Shown here in pieces: positions 1,360 through 5,436 of a DNA stretch of 32,356 nt. Below the pieces are notes generated by a model. That model made no database searches. It was given only the letters and a program-made list of their open reading frames with translations, and was not told the DNA's origin. Origin of the DNA: Clostridia bacterium (GTDB lineage Bacteria; Bacillota; Clostridia; Oscillospirales; CAG-272); NCBI GenBank assembly GCA_017936565.1, contig JAGBFG010000001.1, forward strand, positions 1-32,356, written 5' to 3'. The stretch's first letter is position 1, and each line of letters starts with the position of its first letter. The position numbers were made by a program, and so were the translations under genes.

Positions 1360-4245
1360 ATGGAAGAGTATCAAAACAACACCGAATACTCGGAACAAGA
1401 AATAGACAAATCCAAGGAAGGCGATAAGGGTCAAGCGCGCCAAAGTGCGGAGAAAAAAGGCAAAAAGCCCGTCAGAGAAGATGATTTTTTTGTCCAAGCG
1501 ATGCCGATTATCCTGTTGGCGCTCGGCGCGTTTTTCGGTATTTGCGTGTATACGGCAACGCCCGTGGGCGTTGTGGGAGAGTTTTTCCACTATGTCCTTT
1601 TTGGCGTTTTCGGAAACTCCGCCTTCGCTCTGCCTGTGCTTTTGATTTACGGCGCTATTTTCTTTAAGAGGGATTATCTCGCGCACACCGTTTTGCGCAA
1701 AATGCTTTTCTCCTTTTTGGGCTTGCTTTTGGTGTCCGTGATGTTTTATACCTTTGGCGTGCCGGATGCGGACAAGACTGCCTTTGCTTCCTTCTTCAAA
1801 ATGGGAGTGGAAAAAATCGGCGGCGGTGTCTTTGGAAACTACGTCGGCTTTGCCTTGAATTATACCGTTTCAACCACGGGAACGATTATTTTGAGCGCCC
1901 TGTTTTTGATTTTGTTCTCTATGGTCTTTTTCGGGTTCAGCCCCACAAAGTTTTTCCTTTCTTTGAAAAACAAGGTCGTTGCCTTTGCCAAAGGGCGCAA
2001 GGAAAAGCGCCGTCAGTATAAAGAGGAAAAAGAGCGGCTTCAAATCGAAAAGCAAAACGAAGCGCAAAAGCGTGCTGTTGGCGCCTTTTACGGCGAAGGA
2101 CTGCCAGATAGAGCAGAGAGCGAAAACGCCCTTGTGGCGCAATCGGAAAGGGAAGCGCTGGCGTCCGTTGAGAAAAGCCAAAGCCCCTTTTACTTTCCTT
2201 CTCACGAGGGCGCGGGAAGAAGAACGTTTTACGATGTCGAAGCGGATAAAAGCGTCTTTGAGGAAGACGCTTCTGCCAATGCGCAAGAAACCGTTTTGCC
2301 CTATGGCGTACCCCCCTCGGCAAAAAGACCCGTTCCCGTGCAAAGAGATTCTCTTTTCACGATGGACGATGATTTTGGGCAGGTGAGCAAGCAGGAGCCG
2401 CCGCGTGAAACGCCCCCCGTTTCCAATGCACAAGACGATGCGTATCACTTCTCCTTTGCCGATGAATCGGAGTTTCCGCGCGTGGAAATCGTGTCGGAGT
2501 CCGATATTCCCGATGTCGATGAGGAAGGCACCTTGGAAATTGACGATGTTTCAGATCCCTTCCAAAGTGAAATTCCCGAAGAAGACGAGAGGAAAGAGGA
2601 TGTCGATGACGAGGATGATCTTTCGTCCTTCGATATAGAGGACAAGCCCCCCGCCCCCTCTGCTGTCAAACAGAAGGCTACCGTTATCAACGAGGCATAC
2701 GAAATTGAAAACTGCGGCATTGAAACGTTTGACGACGTTACCGATTCCTCTAAGGGCGAGGCGTATTCCTTCCCGCCCCTTTCCTTGCTGAACAACGCGG
2801 ACGACGTTGCCGAAAGGGATAGTGACGAATATATTGAGAGTCGGAAAAACATTCTGCTTGCCACCTTGAAGAGCTTTAACGTGTCCGCCGAAATTCCCAA
2901 TACCTCGCGCGGTCCTCGCTTGACGAGATACGAGCTTGTTCCGGACGTGGGCGTGCGTATCAAGTCCATTGAAAATCTGGTCAATGAAATTGCGATGAAT
3001 TTAGAGGCAACCTCTGTCCGTATCGAAGCCCCCATTCCGGGCAAGGCGGCAGTGGGTATAGAGGTGCCGAACGCTAAATACAGCGTTGTGCGGTTAAGAG
3101 GGCTCTTGGATACGGAAGAATTCCGCTCCGCTCCCGGTAAAACAACCGTCTGTCTTGGCGTGGACGTGGTTGGAAAGCCCGTCTTTGCCGACTTGGATAA
3201 AATGCCTCACCTGCTTGTAGCGGGCGCTACGGGTATGGGTAAATCCGTTTGTATCAACTCCATCCTGGTCAGCCTTTTGTATAAAGCAAGACCAAGCGAG
3301 GTCAAGCTGATTTTGATTGACCCGAAAAAAGTAGAGTTCAAGCCCTATTCCAACATTCCGCACTTGCTCGTGCCTATTGTGACAGACTCGCAAAAGGCGG
3401 CAGGAGCGCTGTCTTGGGCGGTGAACGAGATGGAGCGCCGCTACGATATCATTGAGGCGGCGGGGGTTAAAAACCTCAAATCCTATAACAAATATCTGGA
3501 AACGCATCCCGGTGAGCGTTTGCCGCATATCGTGGTTGTCATTGATGAGCTGCACGACTTAATGATGCAGGCGCCCGATGCGGTAGAGGACAGTATTTGC
3601 CGTATCGCCCAAAAGGCAAGAGCGGCGGGTATTCTTTTGATTATTGGTACACAGCGCCCCTCTGTCAACGTTATTACGGGCGTCATTAAAGCCAATATTC
3701 CGTCCCGTATTGCGTTTCACGTGGCGTCGCAGGTCGACTCGCGTACCATTTTGGATTCCGTTGGCGCGGAAAAGCTGCTCAACGACGGTGATATGCTGTT
3801 CCTGTGCCCCGGTATGAGAATGCTGACGCCCAAGCGCGTGCAAGGCGCGTTCTTGGACGATGACGAGGTAGAGCGTGTGGCGGATTACCTGCGCAACCAT
3901 TCTGCCAATACGGAATACGATGAAACCATTATAGCGGATATGGAGCGCGAAAGCGAAAAATGCTGTAAGGATAAACGCGGCGCTGTGGATATCGGTATGG
4001 CAGAGGGCGGTGCGGATAACGAGGACGACCTGTTTTATCGCGCCGTTGAGGTTGCCTTGGAAAACGGAAAAATATCCACCTCGCTTTTGCAACGCAAGCT
4101 CTCTCTTGGCTTTGGTAAAGCGGCAAGAATGATTGACCGTATGCAGGAAATGGGTATTGTCAGCGCGCCAAACGGGCAGAAGCCGCGTGACGTCTTAATC
4201 ACCTACGACGATTATCGCAGAATGCGCTTGCGCGAGGATGAATAA
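1360..4245 (+). CDS. ftsK: DNA translocase FtsK/SpoIIIE
   Basis: A 961-aa hexameric ATP-driven DNA pump that moves chromosome DNA through the septum at division or sporulation. Residues 1-45 are charged; about 48-210 hold four membrane segments; about 210-470 form an acidic, low-complexity linker. The motor follows, with Walker A AGATGMGKS (about 621-629) and Walker B VVVIDEL (about 725-731). The residue after DEL is His (DELHDLMM), where the family usually has Ala (DELADLMM). The C-terminal gamma winged helix (about 888-957) contains NGKISTSLLQRKL and GFGKAARMIDRM; this domain reads the orienting DNA motifs. The ATG is preceded by AAAGG with 9-nt spacing. A near-copy of this gamma domain is fused to the next gene downstream. 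Confidence 0.97.
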   Translation: MEEYQNNTEYSEQEIDKSKEGDKGQARQSAEKKGKKPVREDDFFVQAMPIILLALGAFFGICVYTATPVGVVGEFFHYVLFGVFGNSAFALPVLLIYGAIFFKRDYLAHTVLRKMLFSFLGLLLVSVMFYTFGVPDADKTAFASFFKMGVEKIGGGVFGNYVGFALNYTVSTTGTIILSALFLILFSMVFFGFSPTKFFLSLKNKVVAFAKGRKEKRRQYKEEKERLQIEKQNEAQKRAVGAFYGEGLPDRAESENALVAQSEREALASVEKSQSPFYFPSHEGAGRRTFYDVEADKSVFEEDASANAQETVLPYGVPPSAKRPVPVQRDSLFTMDDDFGQVSKQEPPRETPPVSNAQDDAYHFSFADESEFPRVEIVSESDIPDVDEEGTLEIDDVSDPFQSEIPEEDERKEDVDDEDDLSSFDIEDKPPAPSAVKQKATVINEAYEIENCGIETFDDVTDSSKGEAYSFPPLSLLNNADDVAERDSDEYIESRKNILLATLKSFNVSAEIPNTSRGPRLTRYELVPDVGVRIKSIENLVNEIAMNLEATSVRIEAPIPGKAAVGIEVPNAKYSVVRLRGLLDTEEFRSAPGKTTVCLGVDVVGKPVFADLDKMPHLLVAGATGMGKSVCINSILVSLLYKARPSEVKLILIDPKKVEFKPYSNIPHLLVPIVTDSQKAAGALSWAVNEMERRYDIIEAAGVKNLKSYNKYLETHPGERLPHIVVVIDELHDLMMQAPDAVEDSICRIAQKARAAGILLIIGTQRPSVNVITGVIKANIPSRIAFHVASQVDSRTILDSVGAEKLLNDGDMLFLCPGMRMLTPKRVQGAFLDDDEVERVADYLRNHSANTEYDETIIADMERESEKCCKDKRGAVDIGMAEGGADNEDDLFYRAVEVALENGKISTSLLQRKLSLGFGKAARMIDRMQEMGIVSAPNGQKPRDVLITYDDYRRMRLREDE

Positions 4246-4247
4246 GT

Positions 4248-4579
4248 AAGAAAAACGCTTCGCATTTATCTTTGCACGTTTTCTCCTTGGCGGTCAAGGA
4301 CAAAGACCGCCATTCCGCCTTTGGCGGAAGCGAAGCAAACGTGCGCTGCAAGAAAAACGCTTCGCATTTATCTTTGCACGTTTTCTCCTTGGCGGTCAAG
4401 GACAAAGACCGCCATTCCGCCCTTGGCGGAAGCGAAGCAAACGTGCGCTGCAAGAAAAACGCTTCGCATTTATCTTTGCACGTTTTCTCCTTGGCGCTCC
4501 AAAAGTAAGACCGCCATTCCGCCCTTGGCGGAAGCGAAGCAAACGTGCGCTGCAAGAAAAACGCTTCGCATTTATCTTG
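4248..4579. repeat. Tandem array, 102-bp unit, three full copies plus a partial
   Basis: Units start at 4248, 4350 and 4452 with an exact 102-bp period; a truncated fourth starts at 4554 and ends at about 4579. Units 1 and 2 contain two hairpins: GGCGGTC/GACCGCC with a 9-nt loop, and CCGCC-NTT-GGCGG. Each unit also carries the inverted pairs GCTTCGC/GCGAAGC and GCACGTTT/AAACGTGC. Unit 3 has changed bases that destroy the left arm of the first hairpin (GGCGCTC instead of GGCGGTC), while its length is kept. The period is a multiple of three, so frames stay open on both strands; I see no ribosome site or family resemblance and do not call a protein. The array fills most of the 393-bp gap between ftsK and the DJ-1 fusion gene. 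Confidence 0.92.
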
Positions 4580-4638: not shown

Positions 4639-5436
4639 ATGACGGTTTATATATTGTTGGCAGAGGGCTTTGAAGAGATTGAAGCCTTAACGCCGCTTGA
4701 TATGCTGCGCCGCGCGGGATGCGAGGCGGCTTTGGTTTCCATCACGGAAAAAAGGGAAGTGAAGGGGGCGCACGGTATTTCCGTGTTGGCAGACCTTGCC
4801 TGTTATGAGGCAAAGGACACGCCTCAAATGGTTGTCCTGCCCGGCGGAATGCCAGGCGCTTCTCATTTGGATGCCTCGCCCTTTGTTTCTTCCTTGGTGC
4901 TTAATACCTTACAAAACGGCGGCAGAGCCGCCGCCATTTGCGCCGCGCCTATGGTGCTCGGGCATCTGGGGCTTTTGGAAGGAAAAAGAGCGGTCTGTTA
5001 CCCCGGCTTTGAAAAGGAATTAAAGGGCGCGACTGTAGAGAAGCTCCCCGTTGTGACCGATGGAAATATTACCACCTCGCAAAGCATGGGAACAGCCTTG
5101 CTTTTCTCCTTTGAGCTTGTCCGCTTGATGACGAACAGGGAAACAGCCGAAAAATTGCTCGGTGACGTTGATAAGCTATCCCTTTATTCTAACGCTTTTT
5201 CCCAAATCTGTGTGTCAGGAAACGATGAGGAGCTGTTTTCTCGCGCCGTTGAAATTGCTTTTGAAAACGGAAAAATATCCACCTCGCTTTTGCAAAGAAA
5301 GCTGTCTGTCGGCTTTGGTAAAGCGGCAAAAATGATTGACCGTATGCAGGAAATGGGCATTGTCAGCGCGCCTGACGGGCAAAAGCCGCGTGATGTCTTA
5401 ATCACGTATGAGGATTATCGTAAAATGCGCTCTTAA
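4639..5436 (+). CDS. DJ-1/PfpI family protein fused to a C-terminal FtsK gamma domain
   Basis: A 265-aa protein in two parts. Residues 1-180 are a full DJ-1/ThiJ/PfpI domain: ILLAEGFEEIEALTPLDMLRRAG at the start, with Glu15 matching the conserved acid of human DJ-1; LPGGMPGA at 68-74; and the nucleophile Cys101 in AAICAAP. DJ-1 proteins act on glyoxals or damaged proteins and usually end near 185 aa. After a short linker, residues 196-264 are an FtsK gamma winged helix. By hand alignment 59 of 70 residues match the C-terminus of the upstream ftsK, and the DNA is also closely similar. The frame is uninterrupted, so this is a real fusion and not a frameshift. The ribosome site is weak (GAGG about 15 nt before the ATG). 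The natural inference is a DJ-1 protein that binds the same DNA motifs as FtsK; this is untested. Confidence 0.9.
   Translation: MTVYILLAEGFEEIEALTPLDMLRRAGCEAALVSITEKREVKGAHGISVLADLACYEAKDTPQMVVLPGGMPGASHLDASPFVSSLVLNTLQNGGRAAAICAAPMVLGHLGLLEGKRAVCYPGFEKELKGATVEKLPVVTDGNITTSQSMGTALLFSFELVRLMTNRETAEKLLGDVDKLSLYSNAFSQICVSGNDEELFSRAVEIAFENGKISTSLLQRKLSVGFGKAAKMIDRMQEMGIVSAPDGQKPRDVLITYEDYRKMRS

Follow-up and report, generated by a model that had tools for sequence, protein, structure and literature searches.

Why should an enzyme of the DJ-1 family carry a second copy of the DNA-reading domain of FtsK, whose gene lies next to its own? The question is raised by one gene of the window, by which we mean the whole stretch of 32,356 nucleotides analysed here. 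The gene (4639..5436, + strand), delimited by its open frame, its Pfam domains and its matches in the genus, is a single ATG-to-stop frame of 265 aa. Residues 2-162 (4642..5124, +) form a full DJ-1/PfpI domain, identified by Pfam (PF01965, E 3.1e-39, 134.9 bits against a cut-off of 26.6), by alignment, by PDB relatives and by the NCBIfam model of DJ-1 family glyoxalase III (TIGR01383), to which the fusion protein scores 151.4 bits against a curated cut-off of 131.25. Residues 195-256 (5221..5406, +) form a second FtsK gamma winged helix (PF09397, 85.6 bits for the fusion protein against a cut-off of 30.6), seen also in a genome search and by PDB relatives. The earlier note had described one frame joining a full DJ-1 domain, with Cys101 and Glu15, to an FtsK gamma, and with both domains far over their Pfam cut-offs that description stands. 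Pfam places no alpha or beta (RecA-like) motor domain in the 265-aa protein, and no PADLOC defence family matches it at E up to 0.001. Glu15 and Cys101, which we take to be the active residues of the family (the neighbouring glutamate and the nucleophilic cysteine), are conserved across the genus: the glutamate in 63 of 63 aligned DJ-1 sequences and the cysteine in 62 of 62, the 63rd row, from G010, ending at a contig edge.

Each half of the protein resembles a known family. The first half has the full domain, Glu15 and Cys101 of the DJ-1/YajL/PfpI family (TIGR01383, PF01965), with DJ-1 and YajL among its PDB relatives; the 60 listed of 70 such relatives are mostly lone DJ-1 domains, one of them (3fse) adding a ferritin-like domain, and an FtsK part is named in none of these 60. 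The second half has the whole winged helix and the recognition helix of FtsK/SpoIIIE gamma (PF09397; PDB 2j5o, 2ve8/2ve9 and 2j5p), but gamma in FtsK/SpoIIIE is normally the C-terminus of a motor, whereas here it sits on a motorless enzyme.

The source of the copied domain is ftsK (1360..4245, +), which by Pfam encodes 961 aa with a 4TM region, alpha, beta (FtsK_SpoIIIE) and gamma, the last at residues 887-955 (4018..4224, +; Pfam and genome search). It had been placed immediately upstream of the fusion; no other gene comes between, but the two are 393 nt apart, and the interval holds a tandem repeat of 102 bp x 3.2 (4248..4578, +) that has no further match in the genome. The FtsK gamma and the DJ-gamma are 84% identical (59 of 70 residues, the figure given before), and their DNA, previously called closely similar, is 88.6% identical over 211 nt. 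A search of the genome, a 1.6-Mb draft, returns two gamma matches, the FtsK gamma and the DJ-1-gamma tail. According to the part of PMC2680272 drawn on here, KOPS reading in E. coli depends on R1300, E1303 and E1306. At these positions, placed in register by the intervals between R1297, R1300, E1303 and E1306 given in PMC5052618 and PMC2680272, the window's FtsK reads R/D/Q in our alignments and the DJ-gamma K/D/Q. Lysine at 1300 is the commonest residue in the FtsKs of the genus (34 of the 51 readable rows of 61, ten rows being dropped, eight as mis-registered, the window's FtsK included, and two as missed). Loss of the recognition-helix residues that contact DNA had been named as a finding that would speak against the proposal, and in the DJ-gamma the helix is intact.

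An assembly or binning artefact might be suspected in a draft genome that is 85% complete and in 54 contigs. It is scarcely credible here, because two other species of the genus (G025 and G004) have the same architecture in different sequence, the DJ domain of G025 being 67% identical to that of the window, and because a relic at the junction, described below, is common to the window and G025. Loss of the fusion in all relatives, which would have told against the proposal, is contradicted by these two genomes.

Our sample of the genus comprised 69 genomes, the window's being G000, and 63 of them have a DJ-1 match. In 61 of the 63 loci DJ-1 follows ftsK on the same strand, and in the remaining two ftsK is on a different contig; the gap between the stop codon of ftsK and the DJ-1 domain has a median of 35 nt and a maximum, in the window, of 399 nt. 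FtsK parts stand in the DJ-1 frame in nine of the 63 loci, with the DJ-1 glutamate and cysteine retained in all nine alignment rows: gamma alone in three (G000, G025 and G004), a whole soluble motor, alpha-beta-gamma, in five (G009, G030, G046, G023 and G011) and alpha with a decayed motor in one (G022). The last of these frames (L078:5017-6597, +), in which DJ-1 is followed by FtsK alpha and an interrupted motor without gamma, may be a fusion on its way to being lost. Three more genomes (G003, G012 and G040) have a separate TIR-alpha-beta-gamma gene directly after DJ-1.

How the domain came to DJ-1 can be read in part from the linker. Residues 171-182 of the fusion protein (EKLLGDVDKLSL; 5149..5184, +) are what is left of the end of the FtsK motor, a relic identical at 8 of 12 positions to residues 804-815 of FtsK (EKLLNDGDMLFL; 3769..3804, +), with E 0.002 when the linker is compared with its own FtsK alone. 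The relic in G025 (L043) is longer, 54.5% identical over 44 columns (E 1.5e-11, again against its own FtsK alone); it starts at about the same FtsK position as the window's, and a relic is seen in the DNA of G025 as well, over 37 nt at 84%. The genes downstream of the fusion are orthologous, which makes the loci orthologous. Since the relics lie at about one junction in orthologous surroundings, a single joining of DJ-1 to a copied ftsK 3' end most likely gave rise to the fusions of both G000 and G025. The proposal that a local duplication placed gamma on DJ-1 thus gains support from the relic as well as from the similarity within the genome. The linker of G004, compared with its own FtsK only, has no motor-end relic, so the tail in that genome may have arisen independently. 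We also considered a tandem duplication of the ftsK end and DJ-1 as a unit and rejected it, the downstream DJ-1 remnant that it predicts being absent from 12 loci at E up to 0.1.

After the joining, the two gammas of each genome have probably exchanged sequence. Five amino acids in 68 codons are common to the DJ-gammas of G000 and G025 against both FtsKs, and under three simple models the chance of so many common residues by independent change is 0.003 or less. At silent third positions with the amino acid unchanged, seven sites group by genome, none by gene and one crosswise, whereas the amino acids group 6:1 by gene (Fisher p 0.005, 70 codons). From FtsK gamma to DJ-gamma the synonymous distance is 0.33 in G000 and 0.27 in G025, whereas it reaches 0.65 when the FtsK gammas of the two genomes are compared and 1.0 when their DJ-gammas are. 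Silent sites that follow the genome and amino acids that follow the gene point to conversion with a few DJ-gamma residues held, and gene conversion between the DJ-gamma and the adjacent ftsK gamma is therefore probable in both genomes, as far as their sequences tell. Two separate recent duplications followed by parallel change would be the alternative, unlikely in view of the five common residues.

The gamma tail could nevertheless be a passenger, a tolerated leftover of duplication that no longer reads DNA and needs only to fold and not to harm DJ-1. The lineage counts are what such a leftover would give, with 9 nonsynonymous to 4 synonymous changes in the DJ-gamma of G000 (p 0.44) and 28 to 6 in that of G025 (p 0.89), neither below neutral. 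The tail is also dispensable, since G006 and G018 have DJ-1 without gamma though they are members of the window's five-genome clade, and the DJ-1 of G022 bears its decayed motor tail without gamma. A different outcome came from neutral simulations with an equal number of amino-acid changes, scored by a profile of the FtsK gammas of the genus. All three tails score well above the neutral mean (175.5 against 138.9 in G000, P 0.0005; 135.9 against 90.9 in G025, P 0.001; 118.3 against 78.0 in G004, P 0.0025); the recognition helix is retained, and the residues specific to the DJ-gammas of G000 and G025 are shared. A mere passenger is for these reasons unlikely, if still a serious contender. The gamma fold is probably under selection while its surface changes, a reading that the profile test supports and in which the lineage counts show no constraint. 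Gene conversion alone could hold up the profile score in G000 and G025; the tail of G004, at a synonymous distance of 1.25 from its own FtsK gamma, shows no sign of conversion. The FtsK motor regions of G004 (L042) and G006 (L050) are 98% identical in protein with dS 1.1, and in the alignment their DJ-1 parts differ, by eye, much more; the gamma tail is present in G004 only.

The five proteins in which DJ-1 is followed by a whole motor, one of them encoded at L038 4765-6807, are 671-716 aa long, and four of them show 49-53% identity to the first; that their frames stay open at such identity argues for function. Walker A (TGMGKSV) is invariant in all five and the Walker B glutamate is present in all five, the Walker B aspartate being replaced by glutamate in one. 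The 4TM membrane domain has no match in these proteins, and in the half of the genus to which they belong DJ-1 would occupy, in a soluble FtsK, the place of the membrane domain. With a non-membrane N-terminus they would be like SftA of Bacillus subtilis, itself a soluble FtsK paralogue, as presented in the excerpts of PMC5357621 and PMC4744071. They have the content of that type (motor and gamma, no membrane domain) by domain content only, and they differ from SftA, to judge from those excerpts, in that the N-terminal domain is DJ-1 or, in relatives, TIR; the window protein, having no motor, falls outside the type.

Could the window's gene then be a cut-down descendant of such a DJ-1-alpha-beta-gamma translocase, its function a remnant of that of a soluble FtsK paralogue? 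Motor-end relics such as G000 and G025 have in their linkers would be expected of such a descent, although a short copy taken directly from ftsK would likewise leave a relic that starts at the motor end. The genus does have full motor fusions, and these can be drawn together: scattered in a first tree, the five held as one clade in a quick tree built without the TIR rows and G022 are likelier than the free tree (AU p 0.77). The species with the two forms nevertheless sit in opposite halves of the FtsK tree, which includes four of the five motor-fusion genomes (G046, with a partial ftsK, was left out), and the nearest relative of the window's gamma is that of its own FtsK rather than any of the DJ-1-alpha-beta-gamma set. 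We regard this descent as improbable, without calling it far-fetched. The opposite placement makes it probable, from the sequences compared, that DJ-1-gamma and DJ-1-alpha-beta-gamma arose as separate events at one spot. A single origin of both finds no support in the trees, though their long branches soften that verdict. With DJ-1-gamma in the window and whole-motor fusions in related species, this spot of the genome repeatedly yields new FtsK-derived proteins. The window's gene stands at the short end of a series that runs on to the whole-motor fusions and to TIR-FtsK beside DJ-1, a series that no single stretch of DNA could have revealed to the earlier note.

The neighbourhood in which this happens is older than the fusion, given that DJ-1 stands near ftsK on the same strand in seven of eight FtsK-centred loci of the family (L117-L124), in some of them about 700 nt away. 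A search for the DJ-1 plus FtsK_gamma architecture across Clostridia had been called for; it added G025 and G004 within the genus and returned no DJ-1-FtsK fusion outside it in the thresholded samples of family, order and class. A DJ-1-alpha-beta-gamma query matches nine of 295 family genomes at E up to 1e-120, of which only G011, of the same genus, spans DJ-1 and motor, the other eight aligning by the FtsK part alone. With the window protein as query at E up to 1e-56, the window's own genome is the one match among 394 genomes of the order and again among 391 of the class. Diverged fusions below the 1e-120 and 1e-56 thresholds could be missed, as they could among the family matches listed at E up to 1e-15. 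DJ-1 and gamma share a frame in none of 80 named loci, the best 80 of 553 in a GTDB scan. Elsewhere in the family, in a different genus, ftsK and DJ-1 are separated by a soluble FtsK paralogue of alpha-beta-gamma form (L222:2602-4164, -), whose Walker A has R in place of K. Horizontal spread by phage was considered and rejected: of 50,697 phage records searched by tblastn, 60 matched, all with less than 80% of the query covered, and among the 15 of these 60 matches listed it is the DJ-1 part that aligns; a scan of viral contigs gave one DJ-1 match, running to the contig end.

What, then, would gamma do for DJ-1? FtsK gamma converts the polarity of chromosome sequence into position, and DJ-1 family proteins act as dimers; hydrolysis of cyclic-3-phosphoglyceric anhydride is among the activities ascribed to the family. 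We propose, tentatively and at a little short of an even chance, that the gene is a maintained fusion of DJ-1 with a copied gamma, which putatively holds it at FtsK's motifs, or at a XerD-type partner, for DJ-1 chemistry. A copy of the ftsK 3' end, comprising the motor end and gamma, would have been joined in frame to the C-terminus of DJ-1, most likely in one event, in a common ancestor of G000 and G025. What remained of the motor would afterwards have been trimmed to a short linker and gamma kept, probably by selection, with conversion from the adjacent ftsK. If gamma still binds FtsK's skewed motifs, or a XerD-type partner, then a DJ-1 dimer with two gamma tails would be kept at the part of the nucleoid at which FtsK is active, and its chemistry, be it repair of glyoxal, of glycation or of a related metabolite, would be done near FtsK. 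The fusion gives a way to test where in the cell DJ-1 enzymes have to do their work.

The same contacts could instead serve a regulator or decoy, a possibility akin to the competition with FtsK that the earlier note had raised: DJ-1-gamma would vie with FtsK over its motifs or over XerD, and an oxidisable cysteine would make it a stress-sensitive brake on segregation. Gamma reads short skewed motifs of the chromosome, three gammas binding per KOPS, and FtsK gamma uses one surface for DNA and XerD, according to the part of PMC5052618 used here. The competitor would be well matched, being copied from the gamma of the same species with its similarity upheld by probable conversion, and the DJ-1 cysteine is invariant. 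Against such a brake, only three of 63 genus loci have the fusion, so it could be no general control, and in G025 and G004 the gamma residues drift from those of FtsK. We think a decoy quite unlikely. Gamma, or even a whole motor, copied onto DJ-1 amounts to a natural experiment on whether gamma works as a portable address tag.

A borrowed gamma has a known precedent. The small terminases of the Samaravirus phages Sam46 and Sam112 have an FtsK_gamma, which their authors propose serves loading onto DNA sites, in the portion of PMC8190038 consulted. As in DJ-1-gamma, a non-FtsK protein has borrowed the domain; judging from the same portion, the terminase gamma is N-terminal and belongs to a phage packaging protein, whereas the window's gamma is C-terminal, on a chromosomal enzyme, and copied from the next gene. 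Among open-licence papers we found no published account of DJ-1 with gamma or of DJ-1 with a whole FtsK motor, and the fusion of DJ-1 to gamma, above all to the whole motor, is as far as we found new to print.

Other borrowed gammas occur in this family, some of them on TIR proteins described below. One is fused to a Mrr-type restriction nuclease domain (L225:2070-2810, -), and two terminate HTH_3 regulators (L226:2377-4095, -, and L046:2396-2845, +), one of which has a long repetitive middle with a weak FapA match below the cut-off. In three short proteins FtsK gamma is the sole Pfam domain over its cut-off (L044:2486-2890, -; L045:2707-3198, -; L224:1625-2446, +), the gammas of L044 and L045 being 73% identical. 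In G318 an ftsK frame (L227:456-3422, +) stops before gamma, and a short frame of its own, close downstream, encodes the gamma; the break could be a frameshift or a stop codon, either real or introduced by the assembly.

The recurrence of FtsK paralogues at this locus admits a wider reading. The ftsK-DJ-1 locus of the genus could be a nursery of effector-swapped FtsK paralogues engaged in DNA surveillance, in which the FtsK part reads motifs or moving DNA and the enzyme fires on a wrong reading; we consider this a long shot. The set would comprise DJ-1-alpha-beta-gamma, TIR-alpha-beta-gamma and DJ-1-gamma, with TIR-gamma-alpha-beta-gamma-TIR elsewhere in the family. The shared FtsK part would read the host's skewed motifs or sense DNA on the move, and an N-terminal NAD-cleaving TIR, or DJ-1, would act on foreign DNA or on guillotined chromosomes. 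If true, a system for surveying DNA would have been made from the cell's own chromosome pump. The recurrent birth in place of FtsK paralogues with swapped enzymes, TIR included, links segregation with enzymes typical of bacterial immunity.

In six relatives scanned with PADLOC, the SspH and mad8 models, and some HerA models, were matched through the FtsK-like motor, and the TIR-type models were matched by four of five TIR-FtsK proteins, the exception, L041, having its TIR cut. TIR-FtsK genes of alpha-beta-gamma form were seen at L037:5550-7541 (+), L039:2524-4458 (-), L040:5069-8218 (+) and L041:2351-4105 (-), three of which directly follow the ftsK-DJ-1 pair; the TIR-FtsK protein of G040 has two motors, and in G004 a further TIR-FtsK, on another small contig, is ended by the contig edge. 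Walker A, as read in the sequences, is altered in some of the TIR-FtsK proteins and other paralogues (L039, L041 and L222). On contig C92 of G318 an 892-aa frame, TIR-gamma-alpha-beta-gamma-TIR (L223:408-3086, +), sets an FtsK motor between two TIRs, and the next gene encodes a TIR protein with repeats that by eye are leucine-rich-like. TIR_2 is common in the genus, with eight matches in the window's genome and at least one in 39 of 69 genomes.
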